Assembly (NCBI RefSeq): GCF_010500995.1
Contig: NZ_QVMK01000008.1
Location: 1-64,000, forward strand
DNA from: Bacteroides sp. 224
Lineage (GTDB): Bacteria; Bacteroidota; Bacteroidia; Bacteroidales; Bacteroidaceae
DNA: 64,000 nucleotides
Direction of reading: 5' to 3'
Shown here: piece after piece, positions 32,159-47,193 of the stretch
Numbering within the stretch: position 1 is the first letter of the stretch
Layout: the number at the start of each line of letters is the position of its first letter
Notes under the pieces: generated by a model
Databases searched by the model: none
What the model saw: the letters and a program-made list of their open reading frames with translations, nothing else
What the model was told of the DNA's origin: nothing
Made by a program: the position numbers and the translations under genes

Positions 32159-34687
32159 TTACTTCTTCAGCATCTTATCACTCAACATCTTCATATAATA
32201 ACCTCCTACTACTGAGCGAGCCTGGAAGCCAACATGCGTTTTGCTATCCGTGTTATACCAGTCGCTCATAGGTATTCTGTCAGTAGTTTCGTTGGTCCAT
32301 TTATAGATTGGAGAGATAAAGGTTTTGAATGTTTCCGCATCATCTGCCAAGGTAGCTGTCCAGATAATCCAGTCGGATTTGCTATAATTTCTCCGGCTGT
32401 CAAGTGGTAGGCCATAGACGTTTTGCTTGGTCAGGTAATAAGCTAATTCTTTTTGAGCTACGGAAGCAGGGAATACATCTAACTTCAATAGCTTGTTCCA
32501 TACTAAGTTGTATTTCTGGCTCCATGTACCTGCTTTGTCGAAGGTGAGTTTGTAATGATCGCCATCGTCTGCCATCTTCATCCATTCTTGCGCCATTTCT
32601 TTGGCTTTGTTGATGTACTTCTCTGCAATGTCTTTTTTGCCGAGCATATCAGCTAAATAACCATAAGAGGCAATACCCATGATGGCTTTTACGGATAGGT
32701 TCACGTTGTGAGCAAAGTGCCCTGCAAAGTCGTCTGTACAAAGTTGGTTTTCAGGGTCGAGTCCTTTTTCCACTAAATAATCTGTCCAGATGGTTAATAC
32801 TTTCCAGTGCTTCTCTGCGTATTCCGCATTACCTTCCATAGCGGCAATGGCGGCTGTAAGAGTTAGCATATTTCCAGCTTCTTCTACAGGCATATCTCCA
32901 CCGTAAGTTTGTCCGTTGGCTAATGGATAAGTACCAACATCATGAGAGGGGAAAGGTTTTTTCCATTTGCCGCTTTCGCTGTAATAGAAGATGTGGTTTA
33001 GCAATCCTTTGGCAAGTTCGGGGTTGTAATATAAAAATAGGGGAGCCGATGGATAGGTTACATCCACTGTTCCTATAGAACCATTACTAAAGTTTTCTTT
33101 AGATAAGAATGCTAAATCTCCATTCGGAGTTTCTACCAATTTATGAGCAGATATAGCCTGACGATAAGCAAGAGCACAGAGCTCAGCGTATTCTTTGCCG
33201 CCTGCTGCTTGTGCTTCCTTCATGAGTTGAGCATCAAAATCGGCACATGTTTTCATTAATTTGCTATATTCATTGGTAGCTTTCTGGATTTGATCGAGAA
33301 TAGTAAGATTACCTTTGCGATTCCAGTAGGGGCGAAGGTTATCTCCAAAGTACTGGATCGAATAAAGATCATCATAAGCCAGCATCACATATCCCGAAGT
33401 GTGTTTGGCATCTACCTTGCCTAAGTTATGAGCAATGGAGAGTGCTTCCAGCTCTTCTGTTAGGTCGCCTTTTGAACTTGGATTGTAGGTGTTATCTAAG
33501 CTTCCTGTTTCAAGGAATTGTTTTTGTATCTGCGTAGATTTACCAATGGCAGAGAAAACGTTATTTTGTTTGGGAGCCGAGAAATAAACATACCCCCAGT
33601 CGATACGGATGTTATCGCCTGATCTGTCGAGTACCTTTTGAGTCTTGGTTCCTGATTTCAGCAGGTGAAGTTTGGCATCTGCCACCTGTTCGCTTTGTAC
33701 GGATTGGTGGATAACATCCTGCGCCCATTGCGGACCTGCTTCGAAGTAAACAGAAACATCATGCGTTTTTCCGTCTAATGATTTTGCCTGATAAGTAATG
33801 TAATTCACAGGACGAGTCATTAAATCCAAATCATCCATTAACAGAGGAGCTGTAAAGATGAGATCGAGTTGCACACCTCCACATTCGAAGGTATAGAAAG
33901 TTTGTGTAGGCAATACATTTACACTTTTCTGTTGTGCTTTTTTAGTGAAGATCTCTTCATTATTCTTGCGCATCCAGATACCGAAATCGAGGTAGCTTTC
34001 TCCACCTCCGTCGTTACAATGAGCAGCGATAATGTTTTTTCCCGGGCGGAAATGTTTTTTAGCTTCTTCAGAGATGCGTTCCATAGCGCCCTCGCGAGCA
34101 GAGTTGCCTGTGTTGACAAATCTGTATCCATTGATAAAGATTTCCACGCCATCATCATGCGAATATTGGATAAACAAATCACGATCGAGCATTTCTTTGT
34201 CAATGTTTACTTCTCGACGCACCCAGATATCAGGAGTTCTCCAACTGGTGATTGCTTTTAATCTTCCGGGAGAACCGAAAGAACCTCTTCCTTCTTTCCA
34301 GGATGAAGCATCGTAGTTTTCAGATGTCCAATCTACATCAGGCGCTTCTGTGGTATAACGAGCGAGCCAGTTTTCCTTTTCAAAGGTGGGAACAATCATT
34401 TGCATGGGTACCTTTTCTTCACCCATAAAACGGTATGCTTCGCCATCTACTTTGATGACACCTAACAGTTGTTGTTCGTACCCTGTCCAATGACGAATAG
34501 GACCGTCGTACAGGTTGTCATTAAATGACCATCCCGAAGTGTAAGGGTCGATGGTGATAAGCGGAACAGCAGGTGCTCTGAGATCGCTTTGCACGGTTGG
34601 AGCATGCACTGTTGTAGATTCGCAGGCTGCAAGAAGCGCACCTGCGGCGAAAACCGACAAGCTTTTTTTGAAGTTTCTGAAATTCAT
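32159..34687 (-). CDS. DUF4965/glutaminase-like lipoprotein, copy A
   Basis: 842 residues. A lipoprotein signal (VFAAGALLAACEST) is followed by the DUF4964-DUF5127-DUF4965-DUF1793 order of the glutaminase A-like family: VPLITIDPYTSGWSFND near residue 42, GFIR-free beta-rich middle, YAELCALAYRQAISAHKL near 503, and an (alpha/alpha)6 domain with DDFAGHFAHNVNLSVKAI near 650. An extra beta-sandwich-like insertion (about 110-240, DIWVRREVNIDK) is present, as in glycosidases. The fungal relative is called a glutaminase, but in Bacteroidetes such genes sit in glycan loci and their activity is unknown. Last gene of the GH92 cluster, 152 bp after the GH42-like gene. Paralogue at 44728-47193. Confidence 0.85.
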   Translation of the reverse strand: MNFRNFKKSLSVFAAGALLAACESTTVHAPTVQSDLRAPAVPLITIDPYTSGWSFNDNLYDGPIRHWTGYEQQLLGVIKVDGEAYRFMGEEKVPMQMIVPTFEKENWLARYTTEAPDVDWTSENYDASSWKEGRGSFGSPGRLKAITSWRTPDIWVRREVNIDKEMLDRDLFIQYSHDDGVEIFINGYRFVNTGNSAREGAMERISEEAKKHFRPGKNIIAAHCNDGGGESYLDFGIWMRKNNEEIFTKKAQQKSVNVLPTQTFYTFECGGVQLDLIFTAPLLMDDLDLMTRPVNYITYQAKSLDGKTHDVSVYFEAGPQWAQDVIHQSVQSEQVADAKLHLLKSGTKTQKVLDRSGDNIRIDWGYVYFSAPKQNNVFSAIGKSTQIQKQFLETGSLDNTYNPSSKGDLTEELEALSIAHNLGKVDAKHTSGYVMLAYDDLYSIQYFGDNLRPYWNRKGNLTILDQIQKATNEYSKLMKTCADFDAQLMKEAQAAGGKEYAELCALAYRQAISAHKLVETPNGDLAFLSKENFSNGSIGTVDVTYPSAPLFLYYNPELAKGLLNHIFYYSESGKWKKPFPSHDVGTYPLANGQTYGGDMPVEEAGNMLTLTAAIAAMEGNAEYAEKHWKVLTIWTDYLVEKGLDPENQLCTDDFAGHFAHNVNLSVKAIMGIASYGYLADMLGKKDIAEKYINKAKEMAQEWMKMADDGDHYKLTFDKAGTWSQKYNLVWNKLLKLDVFPASVAQKELAYYLTKQNVYGLPLDSRRNYSKSDWIIWTATLADDAETFKTFISPIYKWTNETTDRIPMSDWYNTDSKTHVGFQARSVVGGYYMKMLSDKMLKK

Positions 34688-34839: not shown

Positions 34840-37074
34840 TTAAAAGTCTATTTCAACCCGAACCCCATCAGGGTTATTCTCGAAAGAAACAAATAATGTT
34901 TTGCTTGCTTCATGCCATTCCCATGTGCTGTTCACAGCTTCATTTTGGTTTGCATCCATAAATTTGCATTCTTCGGGTTGCTTTGGCAGAAAGATACGCA
35001 TTACATTGGTACTTTCGATAGGACTCTTTGCTAAGAAAGAATAGGTGTTCTTTTCTATCTTCTCGTCGTACACGCGTGCGGCAGTGGCCAGTACTTGTGG
35101 TTTCTTTTTATTGCTTACCTTATTTATATTGTAAAGCATAGATTGATGATTGGGCTGTACTTCCTTTTGTGTAATTACGGGTAAAGACGGATCGTACAAA
35201 TCAATAAACAAACCTTCTATGCGATAAGGAGTTGGGTCGATGCTTTCGTCCAGTACAGATATTAATTCGTAGTTGCCACGTTGTAGATATAGACTGTTTT
35301 TGAAAGTCAATGTTCCTGCTTTGGCAGTTTGCTCATAGAGGTTTTTAACTACTTCGATGAGTTCACGGTCGCCTTCCTTATTTAATACGTATTCTTTAGG
35401 ATCTTTACGAAGTACATAAAGAGTTCCTTTTCCTATCTTATAGGCACCTTCGGCAGGAGCAGACTCTAAACCGAGCTTTTCGAAAAGATGTGCCGAAGCA
35501 GTGAGATATTGATTTCCTTCCTGATTCCACCACTCGCGCACAGTTTGGAAAGGATCGTTATCCCGTCCGCTGTAAACCACGATACCTCCTTTTTTGATCC
35601 AGTCGGCAAGGTGTTCATGGGCTTTAGGCTCCAAGGGCTTCATATTGGAATAAGTCATTAATAAGATGCGTGTATCTTTTAAAGTACCTGAGTAGGATAG
35701 GTTTTCGATATGTGCAATGCTTACAGGAACTCCTCTTTTAAGGAAAGGCAATGCCTGTCCGTAGAAATTGCTTAGCTGCGGATCATCATACCCTTCGTGA
35801 GTAGGGAAGCGTTGGAACATTAAAGAGTTCCCCATCAATACACTGATTCCTTGAGAACCGCTTACTTTGTTGTTAGATAGAGACATATCGTTCAACGCAT
35901 TCACCATTACATGCATTTGAGTAGCATACTTGCGGGGAATGCGTGCTTTTTCTTTGCTTCCCGCGGATACATTATATAGTCCTTCGTATACGCGTTCGGG
36001 CCAGGGCATTATCTCGTAGTTGTCAATGTCGGGATAGAGTAGTTGAGCAGTAAAGGTAGCCTGATAGTTTTTACGATAATCTTCCCAATCGCGTGGCCAG
36101 TCTTCAATGGGGTCTGTCAGGAAGAACATTTTACGTCCTGTGGGAGCTGTCATCGATTGCATGCTGCCATATTCGAGAAAGGCCGTCTCGAATACACGTT
36201 CGCGGTAGTTCCCGTTATAGAAATTGGGCTCGCGGGAAGTACCTGTCCATACCTGTGCAATATATCCATCTACGCAAGGCATAGAAGCAAGGCTTGCTTC
36301 AGGACTGACAATCTGCCACTGAGAATAATTAACCAATGAGTGTGTAGGAACGTAACAGCGTATGTTCATACCCTTACTTTTTCCATATTCTTTGGCGTAG
36401 GTAAAAACATCTTCCAGCGCACGATAGTACAACTGATATTTTAGTTTGCTACTTAACCAAGTGTTTTCGGGAGATTCATGTTGAGGCCTCCAGGGAAAAC
36501 CGTAATACTCTTGCCATTCTTTTTTGAAGGCATCACTATATCCTGCGCGTGCCCAGAATTCGGGCTCTTCCATGTAGATGGCATCGATGCCTGCGTCAAT
36601 GACGCGTTTCACATGCATCTCTTTGATGTATTTCAGGTAGTTTTTGGAGGGAACAATGTAGGGAACCATGCGTCCGTGCCAGATGGTATCTCCGTTTTGT
36701 TGTACCTGTCCTTCGTCCAGGTGCCACTTTCCGTCCCATTGCCCGGTGAAGTAATCCTGGTATTCTCCCCAGGCAATACCTGTCATGAAGTGGGTGCCAT
36801 ATCCTCTGTCTTGCCAGGACTTAACACGGTCTTCAAATTGAATACGTTTGGATTTATCGCTTGGATTTCCTCCTACACCGTAAATAATAGCCGCATCTCC
36901 TCGGTTGTCGATGGTGGGGCGCCACTCACGGGAAGTCTGGAATACAGTCTTTTCTTTGTTGGTTGTTTCTGCGGTGGTATTTGTCTTACAACTATAGGTA
37001 AACATTGAAAGAGCAATAGCCGCAATAAATAGTGGTGCAGTTGTGGTATGCGTTTTAAGGTTTTTAATTAACAT
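34840..37074 (-). CDS. putative GH42-like lipoprotein glycosidase
   Basis: 744 residues with a lipoprotein signal (IALSMFTYSCKT). Residues about 60-400 look like a TIM barrel, with strands such as GIDAIYMEEPEFWARAGYS near 169, where a Glu pair sits at a strand end, and IRCYVPTHSL. From about 410 to 520 a Rossmann-like segment (GISVLMGNSLMFQR, ILLMTYSNMKPLEPKAHEHLADWIKKGGIVVYSG) resembles the glutamine-amidotransferase-like domain that follows the barrel in GH42 beta-galactosidases. A beta-sandwich tail ends the protein. I cannot name a known family; the fold order is inference. It is fourth in the GH92-GH76-ApbE-this-DUF4965 cluster. Confidence 0.55.
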   Translation of the reverse strand: MLIKNLKTHTTTAPLFIAAIALSMFTYSCKTNTTAETTNKEKTVFQTSREWRPTIDNRGDAAIIYGVGGNPSDKSKRIQFEDRVKSWQDRGYGTHFMTGIAWGEYQDYFTGQWDGKWHLDEGQVQQNGDTIWHGRMVPYIVPSKNYLKYIKEMHVKRVIDAGIDAIYMEEPEFWARAGYSDAFKKEWQEYYGFPWRPQHESPENTWLSSKLKYQLYYRALEDVFTYAKEYGKSKGMNIRCYVPTHSLVNYSQWQIVSPEASLASMPCVDGYIAQVWTGTSREPNFYNGNYRERVFETAFLEYGSMQSMTAPTGRKMFFLTDPIEDWPRDWEDYRKNYQATFTAQLLYPDIDNYEIMPWPERVYEGLYNVSAGSKEKARIPRKYATQMHVMVNALNDMSLSNNKVSGSQGISVLMGNSLMFQRFPTHEGYDDPQLSNFYGQALPFLKRGVPVSIAHIENLSYSGTLKDTRILLMTYSNMKPLEPKAHEHLADWIKKGGIVVYSGRDNDPFQTVREWWNQEGNQYLTASAHLFEKLGLESAPAEGAYKIGKGTLYVLRKDPKEYVLNKEGDRELIEVVKNLYEQTAKAGTLTFKNSLYLQRGNYELISVLDESIDPTPYRIEGLFIDLYDPSLPVITQKEVQPNHQSMLYNINKVSNKKKPQVLATAARVYDEKIEKNTYSFLAKSPIESTNVMRIFLPKQPEECKFMDANQNEAVNSTWEWHEASKTLFVSFENNPDGVRVEIDF

Positions 37075-37086
37075 GGTATTTAGGGT

Positions 37087-37923
37087 TTAGCTGTATTTAA
37101 TAAATAAATGTTTGCTTTGGATCGTTTTTAGCAGTTCTTCCCGCTGTGTTTCTGAGGCTGCAAATATAGCCGTCGATAATATTTCGCCTTCTGCTCCGGT
37201 GTTGGTGATGACGGCTGCTTGCCCGGCTCCTTCTACCCATCTTCCGCTTTCGGGAGAAATGATGTGCTTACGTTCGAAGGAATCATTTCCCGAAGTAGTC
37301 AGGCAATTATTGTGCAGATGAACAGATTCTTCATTAACAAGATCGGGGCTTTTGCCAAAACTGATTTTCCATCCGTTTCCGTTGGGATGATCTCCAAGTG
37401 CCAGTACAGAGCTATTTCCCATGTTGATTAGAGCATTGGACTGCTGGTGTTGGCATAATATTTCTCTGATTTTGTCTAAAGCATATCCTTTCAGGAAGCC
37501 CGAAAGATCTATTCGGGTTCCTACTTGTGTGTAGTAGATGCTTTGATTCTCTGCTATCAGCGAGATGTCGGCAATTCTGCCGGGAGCGTAATTATCAGAT
37601 TGAATAGTGATATCGAAACAACCCAGGGTCTTGGGGTAATATTCGATACATATTTCAATCATCTCATATAAATCCTTACTAATACTAACAGGAGATAGGG
37701 CAGCGGTATGATTTACCCGGTATAGCTCGCTTTCGGTGTTATAAAAGTTACCGATTTTCTCTAAACGGATTAATTCATTGTATATCTCTTCAACTATCAG
37801 CTTAAGCGAAACTTCGGGTTTACCGTAGATCAGAATATCTACCCGGGTATGCATGGCTGTGAACCAGGCGTATAATAATCCTTCGTCTTCGTTCTGCTGT
37901 TTATATATTTGTTGAATCGACAT
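37087..37923 (-). CDS. ApbE-like FAD:protein FMN transferase
   Basis: 278 residues with the ApbE pattern. It has NTESELYRVNH near residue 61, then GCFDITIQSD near 100, the nucleotide site RIDLSGFLKGYALDKI near 136 and INMGNSSVLALGD near 166. LTTSGNDSFERKHIISPESG lies near 209 and an acidic metal region (EGEILSTAIFAAS) near the end. ApbE enzymes attach FMN to Thr/Ser of flavoproteins such as NqrC/RnfG. It lacks the lipoprotein or signal sequence usual for ApbE and sits in a glycosidase operon, 19 bp after GH76, where no flavoprotein is visible. The true substrate is unknown. Confidence 0.8.
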   Translation of the reverse strand: MSIQQIYKQQNEDEGLLYAWFTAMHTRVDILIYGKPEVSLKLIVEEIYNELIRLEKIGNFYNTESELYRVNHTAALSPVSISKDLYEMIEICIEYYPKTLGCFDITIQSDNYAPGRIADISLIAENQSIYYTQVGTRIDLSGFLKGYALDKIREILCQHQQSNALINMGNSSVLALGDHPNGNGWKISFGKSPDLVNEESVHLHNNCLTTSGNDSFERKHIISPESGRWVEGAGQAAVITNTGAEGEILSTAIFAASETQREELLKTIQSKHLFIKYS

Positions 37924-37942: not shown

Positions 37943-39091
37943 TTATGGAATGACTTGCATTAACGCCGGGCATGCACTTGCATCATACACTTCTAAAACT
38001 TCTGTGGGGCAAGGTTTGTTGAAATCTTTATAGGTAAGATTACGGGCATCCCTGTTTTTCCATCCGTTTTCAATATTATAACGCATCCATGGCAGGTATT
38101 GCTTTTGGTTGCAATCTTCTATTAAACGAATGATGTATTCTGCAAATATAGCAGTATATATTCCTTGTTCAACCCCATTTTCTACAAAAAGAATCCCTTT
38201 GCTGTCAGACATTTTGTTTTTTACATAGTCTGCCGCTAATATGGCATCTTGTTTATAAAACTCTTCTCCGGTTTCTTTATAAAGCATTACTGCGGCACCG
38301 ATGCAGGTAGCTTGGTTATATACGTGTGTTTTCCAAGCGGGGCGACCATTGCCGTGCTTCGAGTCGGCTACTTTCCCATCAGAAAGGTCGAAGACGTTTT
38401 CTCGCGACCAACGATAGATTTCTTTGGCTTTATTCAGGTATTCCTTTTTCTCGGTAATGTTGTATAAAGTCATGGCAGCAATAACGGTAGGGTAGTTGAT
38501 GCATGACATTTTCCCTTTGGCGGGGTCTTTAAACATCCAGAACATACCTCCGTTTTCAGGATCGTAAGAGCCTTTATCGCCTACCTTTTCCGAACCATTC
38601 CACACACGGTCGAAACCCGATTCGGATAAAGCAAGATAACGCTGGTTCTCGGTTAGCTCATATCCTCTTGCTAAAGAGATAACCCACCACATGATGTCGT
38701 CGTAAATAAACCACTCTTTTTCGTTATGCCAGTCGAAATTGGCATATTGGCGTTTCATTCCTTCGAAGAAATCATTCAGGCTGTTCAGGTATTTGGCATC
38801 GCCTGTGCGTTTGTAGGCATTGGTCAACATATCCCAATACATGGCTTGTGTCCAGATGGCAGCTCTTTTTTTACATTCAGTTGTTTCGTAATAAACTCCA
38901 AAATCTTTGTTGTAGAAGGTACTGTGGAATGCGTCGATGGCAAGGGTGGCGGCTTCCTGAGCCGCCTTTTCTTTCTTCTTTTTATTAACCGGAGAAGAAG
39001 CCGATGCGGTATTATGCATCGAAATTCCGGTTAATAAAAGAAGTACAATAATAAATGTTCTCTTTGAGTTGATTTGTATGGTATGCGTCAT
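37943..39091 (-). CDS. GH76-family endo-alpha-1,6-mannanase-like protein
   Basis: 382 residues with a signal peptide (TFIIVLLLLTGISMHNTASA). It has an (alpha/alpha)6 fold of GH76: AIWTQAMYWDMLTNAYKRTG near residue 78, the twin-Asp active-site motif in WFIYDDIMWW near 127, then ENGGMFWMF and HVYNQATCIGAAVMLY. GH76 enzymes cut the alpha-1,6-mannan backbone of yeast or bacterial mannans. Both Asp residues are present. It starts 2 bp after the GH92 stop, so the two are translated together and probably act on the same mannan. Confidence 0.9.
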   Translation of the reverse strand: MTHTIQINSKRTFIIVLLLLTGISMHNTASASSPVNKKKKEKAAQEAATLAIDAFHSTFYNKDFGVYYETTECKKRAAIWTQAMYWDMLTNAYKRTGDAKYLNSLNDFFEGMKRQYANFDWHNEKEWFIYDDIMWWVISLARGYELTENQRYLALSESGFDRVWNGSEKVGDKGSYDPENGGMFWMFKDPAKGKMSCINYPTVIAAMTLYNITEKKEYLNKAKEIYRWSRENVFDLSDGKVADSKHGNGRPAWKTHVYNQATCIGAAVMLYKETGEEFYKQDAILAADYVKNKMSDSKGILFVENGVEQGIYTAIFAEYIIRLIEDCNQKQYLPWMRYNIENGWKNRDARNLTYKDFNKPCPTEVLEVYDASACPALMQVIP

Positions 39092-39093
39092 GG

Positions 39094-41385
39094 TTATTTT
39101 CTTTTCTTTTCATTAGAGAATGAATATGGGAAATCTTCTTTATCTACACCTCTGTTCTTGTTAGGAGTAGGAGACATTTCGAAGTTGATTGTTGCTCCAT
39201 CCATTAGTGTTTTGTGAGTTAGGTAGTTTTTTGAATAGTTGTTTCCATTCACTGTCATTGTATTCACATAACGGTTTTTCTTGTTGTTCTCCGGTGCATT
39301 GATAACAACTTTCTTACCGTTTTCCAGTTCAAGTGTTACCTTTTTAAATAAAGGAGAACCTAAAATATATTCATCTGTTCCGGGACAAACAGGATAGAAT
39401 CCTAAAGCAGAGAATACATACCAGGCAGAAGTTTGTCCGTTATCCTCGTCGCCACAATAGCCGTCGGGGTAAGGGGTGTACATCTTATTCATAACTTCGC
39501 GTGTCCAGTACTGAGCTTTCCATGGTTCGCCCGAATAGTTATATAGGTAAATCATGTGTTGAATGGGTTGATTACCGTGCGCATAGTTCCCCATGTTCAT
39601 GATTTGCATTTCGCGTATTTCGTGAATCACAGAACCATAGTAGCTTTCGTCGAACAAAGGAGGTACATTGAACACAGAGTCCATCATAATATTGAAGTCT
39701 TTTTGACCTCCCATTAAGTCGATCAATCCTTGCGGATCGTGGAATACCGACCAAGTGTAGTGCCAACTGTTTCCTTCGGTAAAGGCATCTCCCCATTTCA
39801 ACGGGTTGAATGGCGATTGGAATTTGCCATCTTTATTTTTTCCTCTCATTAATTTATGCTCAGGGTCGTAGAGATTCTTGTAGTTCATAGCCCTTTTAGC
39901 AAAGATGTCGATTTCCTTTTTGGGCTTTCCTAATGCTTTTCCCAGTTTATAAATTGTCCAGTCGTCATAAGCATATTCTAATGTACGGGCGGCATTCTCG
40001 TTGATATTTACATCGTAAGGAACATATCCTAATTTATTGTAATATTCATGTCCCAAACGTCCTGTAGAACTTACTTTCGGATGTACGGCATTGGCTCCGT
40101 GTACTACAGCTTCCCAAAGTGTTTCAATGTCGTATCCGCGCAATCCTTTTAAATACGCGTCGGCCACTACCGATGCAGAGTTGTTACCTACCATACATCC
40201 TCTGTGACCCGGACTCGCCCACTCAGGTAAGAAACCGCTTTCTTTATAAGTGTTTACTAAACCTTCTTGCATTTTTGCATTCATTGATGGATACATCATA
40301 TTCAAGAAGGGGAACAGGCTACGGAATGTATCCCAGAAACCGGTATCGGTAAACATATATCCCGGCAACACTTCGCCATTATAAGGGCTATAGTGTACTA
40401 TCTGGTTGTTTTTATCAATTTCATAAAAACTACGTGGAAACAATAAGGTACGATATAAACAAGAATAGAAAGTACGCAAGTTGTCGATATTACTATCTTC
40501 TACTTTAATTCTGCTCAATACTTTATTCCATTCGTTTCTTCCTTGAGCTGCAATTTGATCGAAACTATTAGTACCCAGCTCTTTCAGGTTTAGTTCAGCT
40601 TGATCGAAGCTTATAAATGAAGAGGCTACTTTGGCATGAACAACTTCTCCTTTTTGAGTTTGGAAACCAATAATACCCCCGGCATGATCGTGTTGAATTT
40701 CTAAGCCTGCGGTGTTGATTTGGTTTGCAGCTACAGAAGCTGTATAGGTAAATGGTTTGTCGAACTCAATCACAAAATAGTTTTTGAAGTTAGCGGGTAC
40801 TCCTCCGCTATTCTTGGTGGTATATCCGATAATCTTGTTTTGTTCGGGGATAATCTTTACATAAGATCCTTTGTCGAAAGCATCTACCACTACATAAGAG
40901 TTTTCATTTTGTGGGAAAGTAAAGCGGAACATTACAGCACGTTCCGTTGGAGCAAGTTCGGTTACTACATCATAATCTGCCAGATACACTCTATAATAAT
41001 ATGGAGTAGCTATTTCGGACTTATGAGAGAACCAACTGGCGCGGGCATTCTGATCGAACACCGCTTTGCCTGTTACAGGCATAATGGTAAATTGCCCATA
41101 ATCATTCATCCAAGGGCTGGGTTGATGGGTTTGTTTAAATCCCCTGATTTTATCTTCTGTATATTGATAAGCCCATCCGTCGCCCATTTTTCCGGTTTGA
41201 GGGGTCCAGAAATTCATTCCCCAAGGTCGGGCAATGGCAGGATACGTATTACCTGTTGATAAACTGTGTTTGGATAAGGTCCCGACCAACGTACTTACGT
41301 AATCTACCGGATCTTCTTGTTGCGCATTGGCACGAATACCCATAAAGAAACATAGAAATAAAAGAATACTAAGTTTTGTTTTCAT
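39094..41385 (-). CDS. GH92-family alpha-mannosidase
   Basis: 763 residues with a signal peptide ending near residue 20 (GIRANAQ). GH92 landmarks run the length: YVSTLVGTLSKHSLSTGNTYPA near 29, GFKQTHQPSPWMNDYGQF near 93, GFWDTFRSLFPFL near 347, GNSWHYTWSVFHDPQGLI near 541 and GDEDNGQTSAWYVFSALGF near 656 with the catalytic acid/base region. GH92 enzymes are calcium-dependent exo-mannosidases, mostly alpha-1,2 or 1,3. Here it would strip side chains for GH76. First gene of the leftward cluster, divergent from the Kelch/SARP-like regulator. Confidence 0.93.
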   Translation of the reverse strand: MKTKLSILLFLCFFMGIRANAQQEDPVDYVSTLVGTLSKHSLSTGNTYPAIARPWGMNFWTPQTGKMGDGWAYQYTEDKIRGFKQTHQPSPWMNDYGQFTIMPVTGKAVFDQNARASWFSHKSEIATPYYYRVYLADYDVVTELAPTERAVMFRFTFPQNENSYVVVDAFDKGSYVKIIPEQNKIIGYTTKNSGGVPANFKNYFVIEFDKPFTYTASVAANQINTAGLEIQHDHAGGIIGFQTQKGEVVHAKVASSFISFDQAELNLKELGTNSFDQIAAQGRNEWNKVLSRIKVEDSNIDNLRTFYSCLYRTLLFPRSFYEIDKNNQIVHYSPYNGEVLPGYMFTDTGFWDTFRSLFPFLNMMYPSMNAKMQEGLVNTYKESGFLPEWASPGHRGCMVGNNSASVVADAYLKGLRGYDIETLWEAVVHGANAVHPKVSSTGRLGHEYYNKLGYVPYDVNINENAARTLEYAYDDWTIYKLGKALGKPKKEIDIFAKRAMNYKNLYDPEHKLMRGKNKDGKFQSPFNPLKWGDAFTEGNSWHYTWSVFHDPQGLIDLMGGQKDFNIMMDSVFNVPPLFDESYYGSVIHEIREMQIMNMGNYAHGNQPIQHMIYLYNYSGEPWKAQYWTREVMNKMYTPYPDGYCGDEDNGQTSAWYVFSALGFYPVCPGTDEYILGSPLFKKVTLELENGKKVVINAPENNKKNRYVNTMTVNGNNYSKNYLTHKTLMDGATINFEMSPTPNKNRGVDKEDFPYSFSNEKKRK

Positions 41386-41603
41386 GGAAATAATAAATAT
41401 ATGAATTAACTTTTTAATTATTTTCGGCTTTCATTGTAAATGTAGTAATTCAGAGGTTAATTAAACGGTTATTTTACGGTTAAAATAAGATTATTCAGCT
41501 TTATAATTTTCTTAATCAGGGAATATAACCTGTTTATAGAGTAAATAATAAGATGTACGCTCATCCTGTTTTCTCTCTCCCATGATTTTGTTTTTTGCAT
41601 TTT

Positions 41604-41708
41604 TGCCAGCACGCCAGCACGATTCGCTTGTATCTATTTGATGTATAGTTTGTTAGACCGTGCTGGCAACCCGTGCTGGCAAGCGTGACGGCAAATTTGC
41701 CAGCACGC
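41604..41708. repeat. array of TGCCAGCACG / CGTGCTGGCA units
   Basis: Five copies of a 9-10 bp motif: two direct (41604-41621), two inverted (41659-41682) and one direct within GCGTGACGGCAAATTTGCC... (to 41708). They can form several alternative hairpins. Confidence 0.8.
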
Positions 41709-41756
41709 TCGGTTGTAATGATATTAAAATCGTCTCCTGCTTTCGTTTTTCTTGTT

Positions 41757-41812
41757 TGCTACCGGCAAACAACTTGTTTACTGGTAGCAAACAGTTTGTT
41801 TGCCGGTAGTAA
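41757..41812. repeat. array of CTACCGGCAAACAA / TTGTTTGCCGGTAG units
   Basis: The outer arms CTACCGGCAAACAA and TTGTTTGCCGGTAG are exact complements; between them lies a diverged middle pair (CTTGTTTACTGGTAG, CAAACAG). The structure resembles the neighbouring array but with an unrelated unit. Confidence 0.8.
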
Positions 41813-41995
41813 ATAATTTGCTTGTCAGTGTTATTGTATAGTAATAATACTTTTTGAAGCTTTTTTTGCACCACTTTTATTAAGCCATTTTTAGTTGTAT
41901 TTGAATAAGATTTTGTAGGTATTACCCTATTTTTCCGCTTTAATTATATGGAAAAACTTGTTTTAGACTTACCTCACTTATTTCTAAGCAAAAGC

Positions 41996-42026: not shown

Positions 42027-42054
42027 TCTGCCTACTTTTGAGACAGTGCTTATT

Positions 42055-44601
42055 ATGAAATTACCATACGCTTTCTTATTGCCTTTTCTTTTTTTTCCTA
42101 TTGTTGCCTTTGCCCAGGGAGTACGCATTCAGGGCAATGACTTTTTGATAGATGAAAGATCTTCTTATAATATATTTAGTGAAGTGCAGCCAGTATTTAG
42201 AAATCAGTTTATTTTAGATTTTGAAATAGCACCGATGAATATCCGCGAAGCTTCGGGAACAGATATCGGCTATATACTCCGTATTAAGAACAAAGAGAAA
42301 AATACTACTTATAATATCTTTTATAACGACCAAGGAGGAAGAACCGTTTTTAAATTCAACCATGAAGGACGAGATGTGTTGATCACTTCTTCTTTTGATA
42401 GACAGGCATTGCGGGAGAACCAATGGATTAAAATGCATCTTGAATTTGATTTGCAGAAAGATTCTTTACTATGGCAAATCAATGACGAACGTTTTTATGC
42501 GGGCGGACTAAGGTTGGAAAAGGAGTGGAGCCCCTGCATTCATTTTGGAAAGAGCGAGCACGTGATTGATATTCCCACTTTCGAATTGCGAAACCTCTCG
42601 GTAGGTAATTCGGATAAGATGTACAGCTTTCCGTTAAATGAAAATGAAGGCTCCGAAGTACATGATGTTCACAAAAAAGTGATAGGGCAGATCATTAACC
42701 CCGTGTGGCTTATTAACGATGCCTATTATTGGAAAAGAGAGAACTTATTCTTCCGATCTCGCCAGGTAGCTGGTTCCAATATGAATATGGATACCCAGGA
42801 GGTTTATTATTTCAATAAAGACTCTATTACCTTTTATAATGTAAATACAGGAGAGAATTATTCGCGCGTATATAAAAATGAATGTCCGGTACCTCTGAGC
42901 CTGGGGACTAATTTTATCGACCTAAAGAATAAGCAACTCTATGTATATGAGGTTTGGACGCCAACGCCGGGACATGTGATGATGGCGCAACTCGACCTCG
43001 AAACATTTCAGTGGACAGAAGTTTCTACGGAAGCATTACCTACTCAATTGCATCACCATAGTTGTTTCTTCGATGAGGCAAACCGGAGATACATTATATT
43101 TGGCGGATTTGGGAATACGCTTTATAATAAGAATTTCTATTCCTTCAATCTGGATACAAAGAAATGGGAAACATTATCCTTCAGTGGAGATGTTATTACA
43201 CCCCGTTATTTTTCATCTATGGGCTATGATAAGAAAGAAAATGCTCTTTATGTTTTTGGTGGAATGGGGAATGAATCGGGCGATCAGTTTGTAGGCCGGG
43301 TATATTATTACGATTTGTACAAGATTGATTTAACAACAAACACCATTACCAAGATATGGGAGATCTCTCGCCAGGGTGAGAGTGAAAACATAGTACCCGT
43401 TCGCCATTTAATTATAGCCGATGGTAGTTTCTATACCTTATGCTACCCCGAACATTTTTCAAAAACATACTTGAAGTTGTATCGTTTTTCATTGGAAGAC
43501 GGCAGTTATGAAGTGGCAGGAGATTCAATCCCCATCCTGTCGGAGAAGATAACCACTCATGCCAATTTGTATTATAACAATCGGTTCGATAAACTGTATT
43601 CCATTGTGCAAGAGTTTGATAATGATGATATTGCTTCTAATATTAAGGCTTATTCATTGTTGTTTCCTCCGGCAACTAAAGAAGAACTGACCATTTATGC
43701 AGAGAAAGAAATATCCACATCGGGTAAGCTTTGGACGATAATCTTTTTATGCCTGGGAGTGGGTTTGGTAGGAATCGTTTGGGGCACTATATACCTTTTA
43801 AGAAAGAAAAAGCAAAAAGTGTCTCCCCAAAGTGAAGAGTCCGAAACCGAAGAATTGGAGGTACTTTGGAAGTTTCCGGCAGGCAAAGAACCCACTTCGA
43901 ACTCCATTTATTTGTTTGGTGAATTTATGATTCGAGACAGGAATAATCGGGATATTACTTATTTGTTAAGCACCAAGCTTAAACAGGCTTTCCTCTTGAT
44001 TCTTCAATACAGTTTAAAGAATGGAATAAGCACACAAGAATTTAGTGAAGCACTATGGCCCGATAAATCCGAAGACAAAGTAAAGAACTCCCGCGGAGTT
44101 ACCATCAATAATCTCCGTAAAGTATTGGGCGATTTAGATGGCATCAATCTGGTTCACGATAAAGGTTACTATAAACTACTGTTTACAGAAGAATGTTATT
44201 GCGATAGTGTAAGGTGCTTTGAAATTGTAGAAAAGAACTTAGATGGTGACTCTTTAATTGAATTGTTCACTATCTTATCCCGAGGCAAGTTTCTGGATTC
44301 CGTAGAGTTCCCGTTTGCCGATTCTTTTAAAGGGAACATGGAAGCGAAACTTGAACCGATATTATTGGTGATGATGGAGAAGAGTTATTCTTTGAAAGAG
44401 TATCCCAAAGTAATTGCTTTATGCGAAGGTTTGTTCCAGATTGATCCGCTTAATGAAGAGGCTATTGGTTATTTAGTCAGCTCTTTGGTTAAGTTAGGGA
44501 TGAACGACGAGGCAAAGAAACAATATCTGTTATTTGCTACGGAGTATAAAAGAATAATGGATACGGAGTACCCGGTGCCTTTTCAGGAGTTGAAGGTTTA
44601 A
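42055..44601 (+). CDS. membrane-tethered Kelch-propeller regulator with SARP-like (wHTH-BTAD) output
   Basis: 848 residues. A signal peptide (FLLPFLFFPIVAFAQG) leads to a beta-sandwich of LamG type (about 25-190), then a Kelch propeller (about 210-545, YIIFGGFGNTLYNKNFY and ALYVFGGMGNESGD). A membrane segment lies at about 560-582 and an acidic linker follows. The cytoplasmic part has an OmpR-type winged helix (about 616-710, LSTKLKQAFLLILQYSL, FSEALWPD, RGVTINNLRKVLGDL) and a TPR-like BTAD (to the end, YPKVIALCEGLFQIDPLNEEA). It is a direct membrane-to-DNA regulator without phosphotransfer. The start ATG at 42055 is preferred to GTG 42046. It diverges from the GH92 cluster and is its likely controller. 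Confidence 0.85.
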   Translation: MKLPYAFLLPFLFFPIVAFAQGVRIQGNDFLIDERSSYNIFSEVQPVFRNQFILDFEIAPMNIREASGTDIGYILRIKNKEKNTTYNIFYNDQGGRTVFKFNHEGRDVLITSSFDRQALRENQWIKMHLEFDLQKDSLLWQINDERFYAGGLRLEKEWSPCIHFGKSEHVIDIPTFELRNLSVGNSDKMYSFPLNENEGSEVHDVHKKVIGQIINPVWLINDAYYWKRENLFFRSRQVAGSNMNMDTQEVYYFNKDSITFYNVNTGENYSRVYKNECPVPLSLGTNFIDLKNKQLYVYEVWTPTPGHVMMAQLDLETFQWTEVSTEALPTQLHHHSCFFDEANRRYIIFGGFGNTLYNKNFYSFNLDTKKWETLSFSGDVITPRYFSSMGYDKKENALYVFGGMGNESGDQFVGRVYYYDLYKIDLTTNTITKIWEISRQGESENIVPVRHLIIADGSFYTLCYPEHFSKTYLKLYRFSLEDGSYEVAGDSIPILSEKITTHANLYYNNRFDKLYSIVQEFDNDDIASNIKAYSLLFPPATKEELTIYAEKEISTSGKLWTIIFLCLGVGLVGIVWGTIYLLRKKKQKVSPQSEESETEELEVLWKFPAGKEPTSNSIYLFGEFMIRDRNNRDITYLLSTKLKQAFLLILQYSLKNGISTQEFSEALWPDKSEDKVKNSRGVTINNLRKVLGDLDGINLVHDKGYYKLLFTEECYCDSVRCFEIVEKNLDGDSLIELFTILSRGKFLDSVEFPFADSFKGNMEAKLEPILLVMMEKSYSLKEYPKVIALCEGLFQIDPLNEEAIGYLVSSLVKLGMNDEAKKQYLLFATEYKRIMDTEYPVPFQELKV

Positions 44602-44727: not shown

Positions 44728-47193
44728 TCAATCTTCCAACATCTTAATAAAGTATCCTCCTACTACCGAACGAGCACGGAATGACACATGCGTTTTGTCG
44801 TCTGTATTATACCAGTCGCTCATTGGTACTCTGTCGGTTGTTTCATTTACCCATTTATAGAGTGGAGAAATAAACTTCTTAAATGTTTCCGTATCATCGG
44901 CTAAAGTAGCAGTCCAGATAATCCAGTCGGATTTGGTATAGTTTTTCCGGCTGTCGAGTGGTAAGCCATAAGTGTTTTGCTTAGTCAGATAATAAGCTAT
45001 TTCCTTTTGGGCTACAGAAGCAGGGAATATATCTAACTTCAATAGTTTGTTCCAGATTAAGTTGTACTTTTGACTCCAAGTACCCTCTTTATCAAAGGTA
45101 AGCTTGTAATGATCGCCATCGTCTGCCATCTTCATCCACTCTTGCGCCATTTCTTTGGCTTTGTTGGTGTACTTTTCTGCGATGTCTTTTTTGCCAAGCA
45201 TATCGGCCAGGTATCCGTAAGAGGCAATACCCATGATGGCTTTTACAGAAAGGTTCACATTGTGAGCAAAGTGCCCTGCAAAGTCATCGGTACAAAGCTG
45301 ATTTTCCGGATCGAGTCCTTTTTCTATTAAGTAATCTGTCCAAGTGGTTAATACCTCCCAATGCTTTTCTGCATATTTTGCATTTCCTTCAACGGCGGCA
45401 ATGGCGGCTGTAAGGGTCAACATGTTTCCGGCTTCTTCCACAGGCATATCTCCGCCATACGTTTGTCCGTTGGCAAGCGGATAAGTACCTACATCATGAG
45501 CAGGGAAAGGTTTTGCCCATTTTCCGCTTTCACTGTAATAAAAGATGTGGTTCAATAATCCTTTTACCAGTTCAGGGTTATAATATAAGAATAGGGGAGC
45601 TGAAGGATAAGTTACATCTACCGTTCCTATAGAACCATTACTGAAATTTTCTTTAGATAAGAACAGCAAATCTCCATTGGGAGCCTCTACCAACTTATGA
45701 GCCGATATAGCTTGACGATAAGCCAATGCACAAAGTTCGGCATATTCTTTACCACCCTTTTCTGTGGCATCTTTCATTAGTTTATAATCAAATTCAGAAG
45801 ATTTCTTCTTGAGATCATTGTATTCTATGTTTGCTTGTGAAAATACAAGTTCAATAGTTTTGTCTTCGTTTTTGTTCCAGTACGGACGTAGGTATTCTTC
45901 AAAATATTGAATAGAGTAATAATCATCATATCCAATCATTACTTTTCCGCTTAACGTTTTACCTTTTCCTAACGATTGGGCAACGGCTACATCCGCTTTG
46001 TTCTTCGTGCTGATATCTCCGGTGAGATTTCCATCTTTGGCAAATGTTTCGCGCATTTTGAATCCGTTGCCGGTGGCAAAAGAACCGTTTTGTTTCTCTG
46101 TTACTAAATAGAAATATCCCCAGTCAATGCGAAGATCGTCTCCACGTTTCTTTAAGACAGCCTGCTCGGTACTACCAATACGGGTATACAAAAGATCATC
46201 CGTTTCCAAACCATTAGAGATTGAATTCTGGCTTGGAAGATTGACTGCCCAGTTGGGTGCTGCTTCAAAGTAAATTTGAGCATCATGTTCTGCACCATCC
46301 GTAGAAGTGATCTTGTAAGAAATGTAGTTCACAGGACGTGAAATAAGCTCCAGATTATCCATCAATAACGGGGCCAGGAACGTTAACTCAAGTTGAACAG
46401 GACCGCATTGGAACACATAATGTGTTTGGGTAGCTTGTACATCCACTGATTTTTGTTCTGCTACTTGTTCAAATTGTTTTTCTTCATCGGCTTCCACATA
46501 GATACCAAAATCGACTAAAGCTCCTCCGGTACGGTTATTACAATGAGCGGCAATGGTCAGTTTATTATCCTTTATAGAATTCATCACCTCAGCCGGAAGT
46601 TCCTCAATAACATCTTTACGCCATACATATCCGGTTTTTACGACTTCAATTCCGTTTACATACAACTCGAATGTGTCATCATGAGAGTATTTCAGATATA
46701 GTTTCTTATTGCCTGCTTTTTCTTGATTGATTTCAATATCTCTACGCACCCAAATATCTTTCGTTTCCCAAAGCGTTTTTACATTTGTTTCGTCGGACGT
46801 TCCGAATGCTGCTTCGGCCACCTCCCAATTTTTATCATTGAATCCGGGAGTTTCCCATCCTTTGGCAGGTTGGTTAAATGTATATTTTCCCATCCATGCC
46901 TCATCTGTCGACATAGGTGCTATGGCTACCAGAGGGATTTTTTCTACTCCCATGAAGCGATAGGTTTGTCCGTCTACACGAAGCACACCGATAAGGGGAA
47001 ACTCTTTCCCTGTCCAGTGTTTCACCGGTTCATCGTACAATTTGTCTGTCATTGACCAGGCAGAGGTATAGGGGTCAATGGTAATCAACGGATAAGCCGG
47101 AGCGCGTAAATCATTTTTAATAACCGGAATCTCCGTATCTGTTTTACATGCCATCAGGCAGATACATGAGCCTAATAATAAGATTTTCTTCAT
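44728..47193 (-). CDS. DUF4965/glutaminase-like lipoprotein, copy B
   Basis: 821 residues with a lipoprotein signal (LLLGSCICLMACKT). Same domain order as copy A at 32159-34687: YPLITIDPYTSAWSMTD near the N-terminus, a beta insertion (DIWVRRDIEIN), YAELCALAYRQAISAHKL near 480 and DDFAGHFAHNVNLSVKAI in the helical domain. The C-terminal 340 or so residues are almost identical to copy A, while the N-terminal half differs at many positions. It follows the sulfatase gene by 41 bp in the same direction. Activity unknown; a role on a sulfated or decorated glycan is inferred from its neighbour. Confidence 0.85.
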   Translation of the reverse strand: MKKILLLGSCICLMACKTDTEIPVIKNDLRAPAYPLITIDPYTSAWSMTDKLYDEPVKHWTGKEFPLIGVLRVDGQTYRFMGVEKIPLVAIAPMSTDEAWMGKYTFNQPAKGWETPGFNDKNWEVAEAAFGTSDETNVKTLWETKDIWVRRDIEINQEKAGNKKLYLKYSHDDTFELYVNGIEVVKTGYVWRKDVIEELPAEVMNSIKDNKLTIAAHCNNRTGGALVDFGIYVEADEEKQFEQVAEQKSVDVQATQTHYVFQCGPVQLELTFLAPLLMDNLELISRPVNYISYKITSTDGAEHDAQIYFEAAPNWAVNLPSQNSISNGLETDDLLYTRIGSTEQAVLKKRGDDLRIDWGYFYLVTEKQNGSFATGNGFKMRETFAKDGNLTGDISTKNKADVAVAQSLGKGKTLSGKVMIGYDDYYSIQYFEEYLRPYWNKNEDKTIELVFSQANIEYNDLKKKSSEFDYKLMKDATEKGGKEYAELCALAYRQAISAHKLVEAPNGDLLFLSKENFSNGSIGTVDVTYPSAPLFLYYNPELVKGLLNHIFYYSESGKWAKPFPAHDVGTYPLANGQTYGGDMPVEEAGNMLTLTAAIAAVEGNAKYAEKHWEVLTTWTDYLIEKGLDPENQLCTDDFAGHFAHNVNLSVKAIMGIASYGYLADMLGKKDIAEKYTNKAKEMAQEWMKMADDGDHYKLTFDKEGTWSQKYNLIWNKLLKLDIFPASVAQKEIAYYLTKQNTYGLPLDSRKNYTKSDWIIWTATLADDTETFKKFISPLYKWVNETTDRVPMSDWYNTDDKTHVSFRARSVVGGYFIKMLED

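Follow-up and report, generated by a model that had tools for sequence, protein, structure and literature searches.

The stretch of DNA analysed here, called the window, comprises 64,000 nucleotides of Bacteroides sp. 224 (contig NZ_QVMK01000008.1, positions 1 to 64,000). On its forward strand lies a gene for a membrane regulator, divergent from a presumed operon that starts with a glycoside hydrolase family 92 (GH92) alpha-mannosidase. In a single chain, the regulator joins a periplasmic beta-sandwich and a Kelch propeller, via one membrane helix, to a cytoplasmic winged helix and a BTAD, and it probably switches on the neighbouring alpha-mannan breakdown genes. The features of the gene are as follows.

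42055..44601, plus strand: Kelch-SARP membrane regulator, 848 amino acids from an ATG (open reading frame call, Pfam, models, fold matches)
42055..42117, plus strand: signal peptide, about residues 1-21 (hydrophobic N-terminus)
42121..42696, plus strand: periplasmic beta-sandwich, residues 23-214, LamG label unproven (AlphaFold2 model)
42712..43677, plus strand: Kelch beta-propeller, residues 220-541, probable sensor (Pfam, VIA match to the LZTR1 Kelch domain)
43717..43812, plus strand: transmembrane helix, residues 555-586 (hydrophobicity, family alignment, model)
43888..44190, plus strand: cytoplasmic OmpR-type winged helix, residues 612-712 (models, AfsR/EmbR fold match)
44191..44598, plus strand: BTAD with TPR-like helices, residues 713-848 (fold; Pfam match below cut-off)

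Architecture and topology of the regulator

A scan of named genomes returned 159 relatives, the 80 most similar of which were analysed as loci; these 80 come from Bacteroides, Dysgonomonas, Proteiniphilum, Sphingobacterium, Chitinophaga, Cytophagales and others. The whole-protein AlphaFold2 model was built from an alignment of 78 sequences, namely the window's and 77 of the 80 relatives (L067, L101 and L108, cut by a contig end or split into two open reading frames, were omitted), and reached a mean predicted local distance difference test (pLDDT) score of 90.3. A GTG at 42046 is a possible alternative start. The Kelch propeller is the only part above a Pfam cut-off (PF24681, 75.8 bits against 50, residues 311-486), and residues 220-538 superimposed on the solved Kelch propeller of LZTR1 with a VIA Z score of 22.2 (root-mean-square deviation, rmsd, 3.6; 276 aligned residues); for the whole model, the matches listed by VIA fall mainly within residues 223-541. 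The sequence-only reading had described the N-terminal domain as a LamG-type sandwich. The model does contain a beta-sandwich there, and the LamG label is unproven: residues 23-214 had no Pfam match in the regulator itself, an hhalign comparison of the N-terminal part with the Laminin_G_3 region of the sister proteins returned 0.4%, and a Laminin_G_3 match at the corresponding place appeared, below threshold (15.8 versus 27.6 bits), in one of 19 Kelch members (L013).

A hydrophobic segment occupies the aligned position of the membrane helix in 77 of the 78 sequences, the window's included. Lysine and arginine are in excess on its C-terminal (inner) side in 75, and the N-terminus carries a hydrophobic segment in 74. 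From these features of sequence and model, the sensor is predicted to lie outside the inner membrane and the DNA-binding part in the cytoplasm, in agreement with what the sequence-only reading had proposed.

The last 237 residues were also modelled alone, from an alignment of 61 sequences (the window's and 60 of the 77 relatives). This model (pLDDT 94.5) contains the winged helix that had been expected from the letters, followed directly by a BTAD, and its fold is SARP-like, a type familiar above all from antibiotic producers. Foldseek returned six matches at E <= 0.001, all of them AfsR-complex or EmbR chains. VIA aligned the model with AfsR at Z 15.0 (rmsd 5.0, 226 residues) and with EmbR at Z 13.5 (rmsd 5.0, 229 residues). 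Across the AfsR and EmbR chains (PDB 8hvr, 8k60, 2fez) Z ranged from 13.4 to 15.0 over 224-229 of the 237 residues, and the rows below them, at Z <= 10.6, were mostly TPR proteins and BamD. The rmsd of about 5 indicates that the winged-helix and BTAD sub-domains are placed not quite alike. This relation surfaced by fold and not by sequence, since a profile of the C-terminal part, searched against PDB sequences, brought up no SARP and chiefly TPR proteins, designed or natural. Among 25 family members, BTAD was matched at E <= 0.1 in 11 and above the cut-off in three (L005, L011, L012). In SARPs as presented in the accessible parts of PMC4393881 and PMC10936776, the DNA-binding domain is N-terminal in a soluble protein, whereas in the regulator it is C-terminal and is preceded by a periplasmic sensor and a membrane helix; for this reason we speak of a SARP-type output and not of a SARP.

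Family and linkage to alpha-mannan genes

The presumed operon divergent from the regulator consists of five genes.

39094..41385, minus strand: GH92 alpha-mannosidase, first gene of the presumed operon (Pfam; NCBIfam TIGR01180)
37943..39091, minus strand: GH76, endo-alpha-mannanase family (Pfam)
37087..37923, minus strand: ApbE-family protein within the presumed alpha-mannosidase operon (Pfam)
34840..37074, minus strand: 744-amino-acid conserved protein, neighbour family c4 (69-77% identity to its seven best c4 matches)
32159..34687, minus strand: DUF4964-DUF5127-GtaA protein, last gene of the presumed operon (Pfam)

The linkage to such genes is conserved. GH76, GH92 or GH125 lies within 10 kb in 70 of the 80 loci, or in 53 of 60 representatives at 80% identity, and some of the loci without them are short contigs. 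The neighbour families, named from one representative each, were SusD (58 of the 80 loci), SusC (58), GH76 (53), DUF3823 (51) and c4 (39), followed by the CarboxypepD_reg family c5 (27), GH92 (24), GtaA/DUF4964 (23) and GH125 (11). On the usual map the polysaccharide utilization locus (PUL) diverges from the regulator; elsewhere it is convergent or co-directional.

A sample of 61 genomes (the window's own and relatives) had a match in 18. In 16 of them, GH92 lay within 10 kb of 10 of the 21 full-length Kelch members, against an expected 0.73, and of none of the six members with other sensors; a copy on contig C41 was counted separately (0 of 1), and the matches in G002, G033 and G015:C87 were omitted as short, response-regulator-like frames of about 242-248 amino acids. 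In seven of these genomes, 8 of 12 Kelch members were near a GH92 gene versus 11 of 131 matches to Y_Y_Y, the sensor of hybrid two-component systems (HTCS); the Fisher p of 7.8e-6 (3.9e-5 without the window) is optimistic, in view of the relatedness of the members and of a window fixed beforehand. The window's genome (4.42 Mb) holds one further, diverged copy (28%), with one stop within the matched span.

The same C-terminal part is joined to other sensors. All four scanned loci of one form (L014-L017) bear Laminin_G_3, and a further variant is a short form of about 500 residues. The Laminin_G_3 form adjoins GFO/IDH/MocA genes in the two cases checked; visual inspection shows TTAGCCC-like repeats after L015 (at 2484) and after L017 (at 2481), with low motif scores. 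A profile of the C-terminal part matched 32 of 392 Bacteroidota genomes at E <= 1e-6, and many of its weaker matches may be other SARP-like proteins. Within the Kelch branch, three subfamily B regulators (L011, L013, L023) stand beside GH99-like genes, whose Pfam matches are below the cut-off, which suggests that the whole branch serves alpha-mannoside or N-glycan loci.

Two neighbours in the window deserve mention in their own right. The c4 protein had no Pfam or NCBIfam match and no PDB relative below E 0.7, and it could be an enzyme or binding protein for alpha-mannan that has yet to be described. A second DUF4964-DUF5127-GtaA protein lies beyond the regulator at 44728-47193 (Pfam).

Predicted operator and promoter

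Between the regulator and the GH92 gene, two short elements face the operon. The Bacteroidota -7 consensus is TAnnTTTG, and the window's element has the form TAnnTTT(G/A).

41454..41482, minus strand: predicted operator TAACCG-N5-TAACCG-N6-TAACC, facing GH92 (motif discovery)
41437..41444, minus strand: TACATTTA, predicted -7 element of the GH92 operon (downstream of the third repeat, with a gap of 9 bp)

The three repeats read TAACCG (41482-41477), TAACCG (41471-41466) and TAACCT (41459-41454), and their starts are 11 and 12 bp apart. They emerged from unsupervised motif discovery in 46 non-redundant divergent intergenic regions out of 58, which gave the consensus TAACCC-N5-TAACCC-N6-TAACC at a log-likelihood of 560, versus 103.7-105.2 in three shuffled sets; the shuffles were given about half as many starts (12 versus 25), a difference that is small beside 560 versus 105. 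A gene upstream of the member was lacking in four of the 80 loci, and 74 of the remaining 76 upstream regions were scanned (two were shorter than 32 bp). The motif exceeded the 99th percentile of the shuffles in 51 of 62 divergent regions versus 4 of 254 other intergenic regions, with overlap between training and test regions, and two of those four regions lie upstream of GH125 or GH92. In the held-out halves of three random splits, 21, 21 and 20 of 25 regions were motif-positive, and all sites were oriented towards the divergent gene.

The promoter element tends to lie at one distance from the repeats. Counted from the start of the motif, TTTG occurred at offset 43-44 in 22 of the 40 non-redundant sites, compared with two at most for any other offset from 30 to 106, and an exact TAnnTTTG was found within 110 nt of 10 of 41 sites (shuffled mean 1.66, maximum 6). 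According to the available text of PMC4393881 and PMC10936776, SARPs use direct repeats 11 or 22 bp apart, the 3' repeat lying 8 bp from the -10 element, and the accessible part of PMC5930380 gives three heptamers with 4-bp spacers for PimR. The layout in the window resembles this arrangement, with direct repeats about 11 bp apart that end 8-9 bp before the downstream element of the promoter. It differs in having three repeats at 11- and 12-bp steps, a TAACCC consensus and a TAnnTTTG-like promoter.

The motif follows one branch of the family. Among the 26 loci of the first set (stretches of 3.7-5.6 kb), the motif score was above 14 in 8 of the 10 loci of Kelch subfamily A, and did not exceed 8.2 in any of the 16 loci of subfamily B, the Laminin_G_3 form and the short form. 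For subfamily B alone, the log-likelihoods per width barely exceeded the best of three shuffles (52.7/50.5, 75.3/71.5, 86.8/86.0; starts were halved for the shuffles), and no repeat structure was seen.

We also searched whole genomes for the site. The window's genome contains two exact sites, one before the GH92 operon and one before a GH125-family gene on contig C55 that starts 79 bp past the first base of the site. A two-mismatch match lies 11 bp ahead of the C55 site (L152, C55:3013-3051), and the two together resemble a set of four repeats and not of three. Sixteen named genomes were picked from those behind the 80 loci, 11 without the motif beside the regulator and five with it (L036, L048, L095 and L099 beside the regulator, L100 upstream of its GH92 gene). 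All 16 had a site with at most one mismatch just before the start gene of the PUL; the 12 exact sites all precede a c5, GH76 or GH92 gene and the four one-mismatch sites precede c5 or GH92. In eight of these genomes (L041, L043, L045, L046, L050, L052, L053, L062) there was no site beside the regulator (L041 has no gap to scan), and an exact site stood before the first PUL gene, in stretches outside the training set; in seven of the eight it was on the same contig, 14.5-19.5 kb from the regulator start. In the genome of L048, a further one-mismatch site (L179), at another place, precedes a SusC-like gene that starts 157 bp past the first base of the site, a possible second target.

In an order-wide sample of 392 genomes, an exact site was present in five of the nine genomes with a close relative (full-length, at least 36% identity) versus 9 of the 383 others (Fisher p 3.1e-6; 4.8e-5 without the window's genome). 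One of the five is the window's genome, and in the other four the site precedes a c5, GH92, c5 and c4 gene. Seven of the nine sites in genomes without a close relative were inside open reading frames, and none of the nine preceded a gene of a neighbour family; the reversed pattern, used as a control, occurred in 4 of 392 genomes. Taken together, from its conservation, orientation and position in the sequences compared, the triple repeat at 41454-41482 is the probable operator of the GH92 operon.

Proposed mechanism, alternatives and meaning

We consider it likely that the regulator is a membrane-tethered, one-component activator of alpha-mannan use with a SARP-type output. The sequence-only reading had called it the probable local switch of the divergent GH92 cluster, and this is the reading best supported by structure, gene neighbourhood and the conserved predicted operator. 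For its mode of action, we infer the following steps. The periplasmic sandwich and Kelch propeller would most likely bind alpha-mannoside oligosaccharides, and the bound state would align or cluster protomers via the single membrane helix. The winged-helix and BTAD domains would then line up on the three direct repeats (41454-41482), adjacent to the GH92 -7 element, and, substituting for a -33 element, would bring in RNA polymerase, as SARPs such as AfsR do; the layout for this is read from the sequence. The targets in the window's genome would be the GH92-GH76-ApbE-c4-GtaA operon and, judging from the two exact sites, the GH125 gene on the other contig.

Several results weigh against this assignment. 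The regulator's own matches to BTAD and Trans_reg_C are below the Pfam cut-offs (16.1 versus 22.1 bits and 14 versus 26.2 bits), and the second repeat step is 12 bp, not 11. The motif was not found in 11 of the 62 divergent regions (L042, L045, L049, L050, L051, L053, L060, L066, L085, L090, L107); in L045, L050 and L053 the opposite end of the PUL carries the site, and L085 and L004, the latter with a site downstream of the regulator, are probably one locus. Two of the ten first-set subfamily-A loci (L005, L010) have no good site, and no standout motif came from the 10 upstream regions of subfamily B, which likewise has GH92 or GH99-like genes as neighbours. With mismatches the pattern alone is weak: at up to two, the window's genome has 18 matches versus 15 for the reversed pattern, and at up to one, the 16 named genomes have 27 versus 18 for the reversed control, the 27 being the 16 PUL-start sites, the one before the SusC-like gene and 10 elsewhere. 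In the order-wide sample, the exact-pattern search found no site in four of the nine close-relative genomes. That sample overlaps the training loci (at least three of the four sites outside the window's genome, those of G759, G502 and G757, match L036, L047 and L102), and it therefore tests specificity more than recovery; the rarity of the site elsewhere is independent of the overlap.

The alternative to which we give most weight, though we think it doubtful, concerns the ligand: the periplasmic part might sense a partner protein, another glycan or the state of the envelope in place of alpha-mannosides. Among solved structures, those ranked closest to the propeller are mostly Kelch domains of eukaryotes that bind proteins, as this view would expect. 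The GH76, GH92 and GH125 linkage in 53 of the 60 representatives speaks for alpha-mannosides instead, as does the precedent, in the accessible part of PMC3878776, that SusR binds maltose and that the studied HTCS of one sensor class bind oligosaccharides.

It is rather improbable that the regulator acts on the operon in another way, either by repressing it or through a fragment that regulated proteolysis sets free close to the membrane segment. Cleavage is conceivable, because the linker behind the membrane helix is disordered (residues 586-606, pLDDT below 50). The repeats do not cover the -7 element but stand upstream of it, which favours activation, and the SARPs described in the available portions of PMC4393881 and PMC10936776 are activators.

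Distinctly improbable, in our estimate, is that another transcription factor binds the triple repeat, with the Kelch protein a mere neighbour or a modulator of that factor. The four close-relative genomes without an exact site would be in line with this idea. Against it, direct repeats beside a -7 element are what a SARP-type protein would be expected to use (on the accessible text of PMC4393881 and PMC10936776), genomes that lack a close relative seldom have an exact site and in none of them does it precede a gene of a neighbour family, and the motif tracks subfamily A and not the other forms.

A more conspicuous set of direct repeats occupies the same intergenic region.

41597..41830, no strand assigned: dispersed genomic repeat, judged to lie outside the switch (copies elsewhere in the window's genome)

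That these repeats are the operator is scarcely credible: they lie inside the divergent region and are above chance within the window, but the same composite element recurs at seven other places in the genome and is not what is conserved upstream of relatives. The sequence-only reading had been right that direct repeats exist in the 0.6-kb region; the link to the switch that it implied for them needs correcting. A 112-bp part of the element, with arms GCCAGCACG...CGTGCTGGC, is present in eight copies including the window's; the seven others (83-92% identity) are on contigs C37 (two), C47, C56, C63, C74 and C107. A second short palindromic repeat lies about 100-200 bp from each 112-bp copy, once only weakly matched. 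A Y1 transposase was considered as the mobiliser and rejected, since by coordinates none of the four Y1_Tnp genes of the genome is beside a copy (the nearest, in the window, is about 20 kb away). The four sub-threshold Rfam matches on the repeat (three animal-type microRNAs and one small RNA) were judged to be chance matches to a palindrome.

Among the known systems, the activator proposed here is best read as distinct from HTCS and extracytoplasmic function (ECF) sigma systems and as topologically SusR-like. Regulation of PULs in B. thetaiotaomicron is described, in the part of PMC3878776 available, through SusR-like, HTCS and ECF systems. With the SusR-like type as described there, the regulator would share a periplasmic sensor, a membrane anchor, a cytoplasmic C-terminal DNA-binding domain and a place in or near a PUL; this comparison is one of described architecture, and the topology on our side is a predicted one. 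HTCS such as BT2628 and BT3786 resemble it in their linkage to alpha-mannan PULs and in having the sensor outside and the DNA-binding part inside (same source and extent). They differ in combining a histidine kinase and a response regulator with an AraC-type helix-turn-helix in one chain, for which the regulator has no Pfam match, and the predicted HTCS mannan motif consists of two 16-bp sites with a 5-bp spacer (PMC3878776, in the text available).

ToxR and CadC are membrane-tethered proteins with an N-terminal OmpR-type winged helix, a C-terminal sensor and no BTAD; the domain order of the regulator, by its model, is the reverse. Among the papers listed in searches of the open-licence PMC literature, none was on a Kelch/SARP/BTAD regulator in Bacteroidota. 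What appears new is an arrangement of known parts for which that literature yielded no report.

Beyond this locus, we lean slightly towards the view that Bacteroidota have a further class of transmembrane PUL regulators beside HTCS, SusR and ECF-sigma/anti-sigma systems, in which interchangeable periplasmic sensors are coupled to a tethered SARP-type output. If so, its sensors would include the beta-sandwich with Kelch propeller, the Laminin_G_3-bearing form and the short form, and ligand-driven assembly on repeats about 11 bp apart, replacing a -33 element, would place an activation complex at the inner membrane. The operator is predicted at base resolution, which makes the claim directly testable, and if the ligand were confirmed, the regulator and its promoter would form a mannan-responsive sensor-promoter pair. 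A widespread family of this kind would explain how many alpha-mannan loci are switched, from Sphingobacterium to Bacteroides, and would show that activation in the manner of SARPs, which are known as soluble activators of actinobacteria, works from the membrane too.

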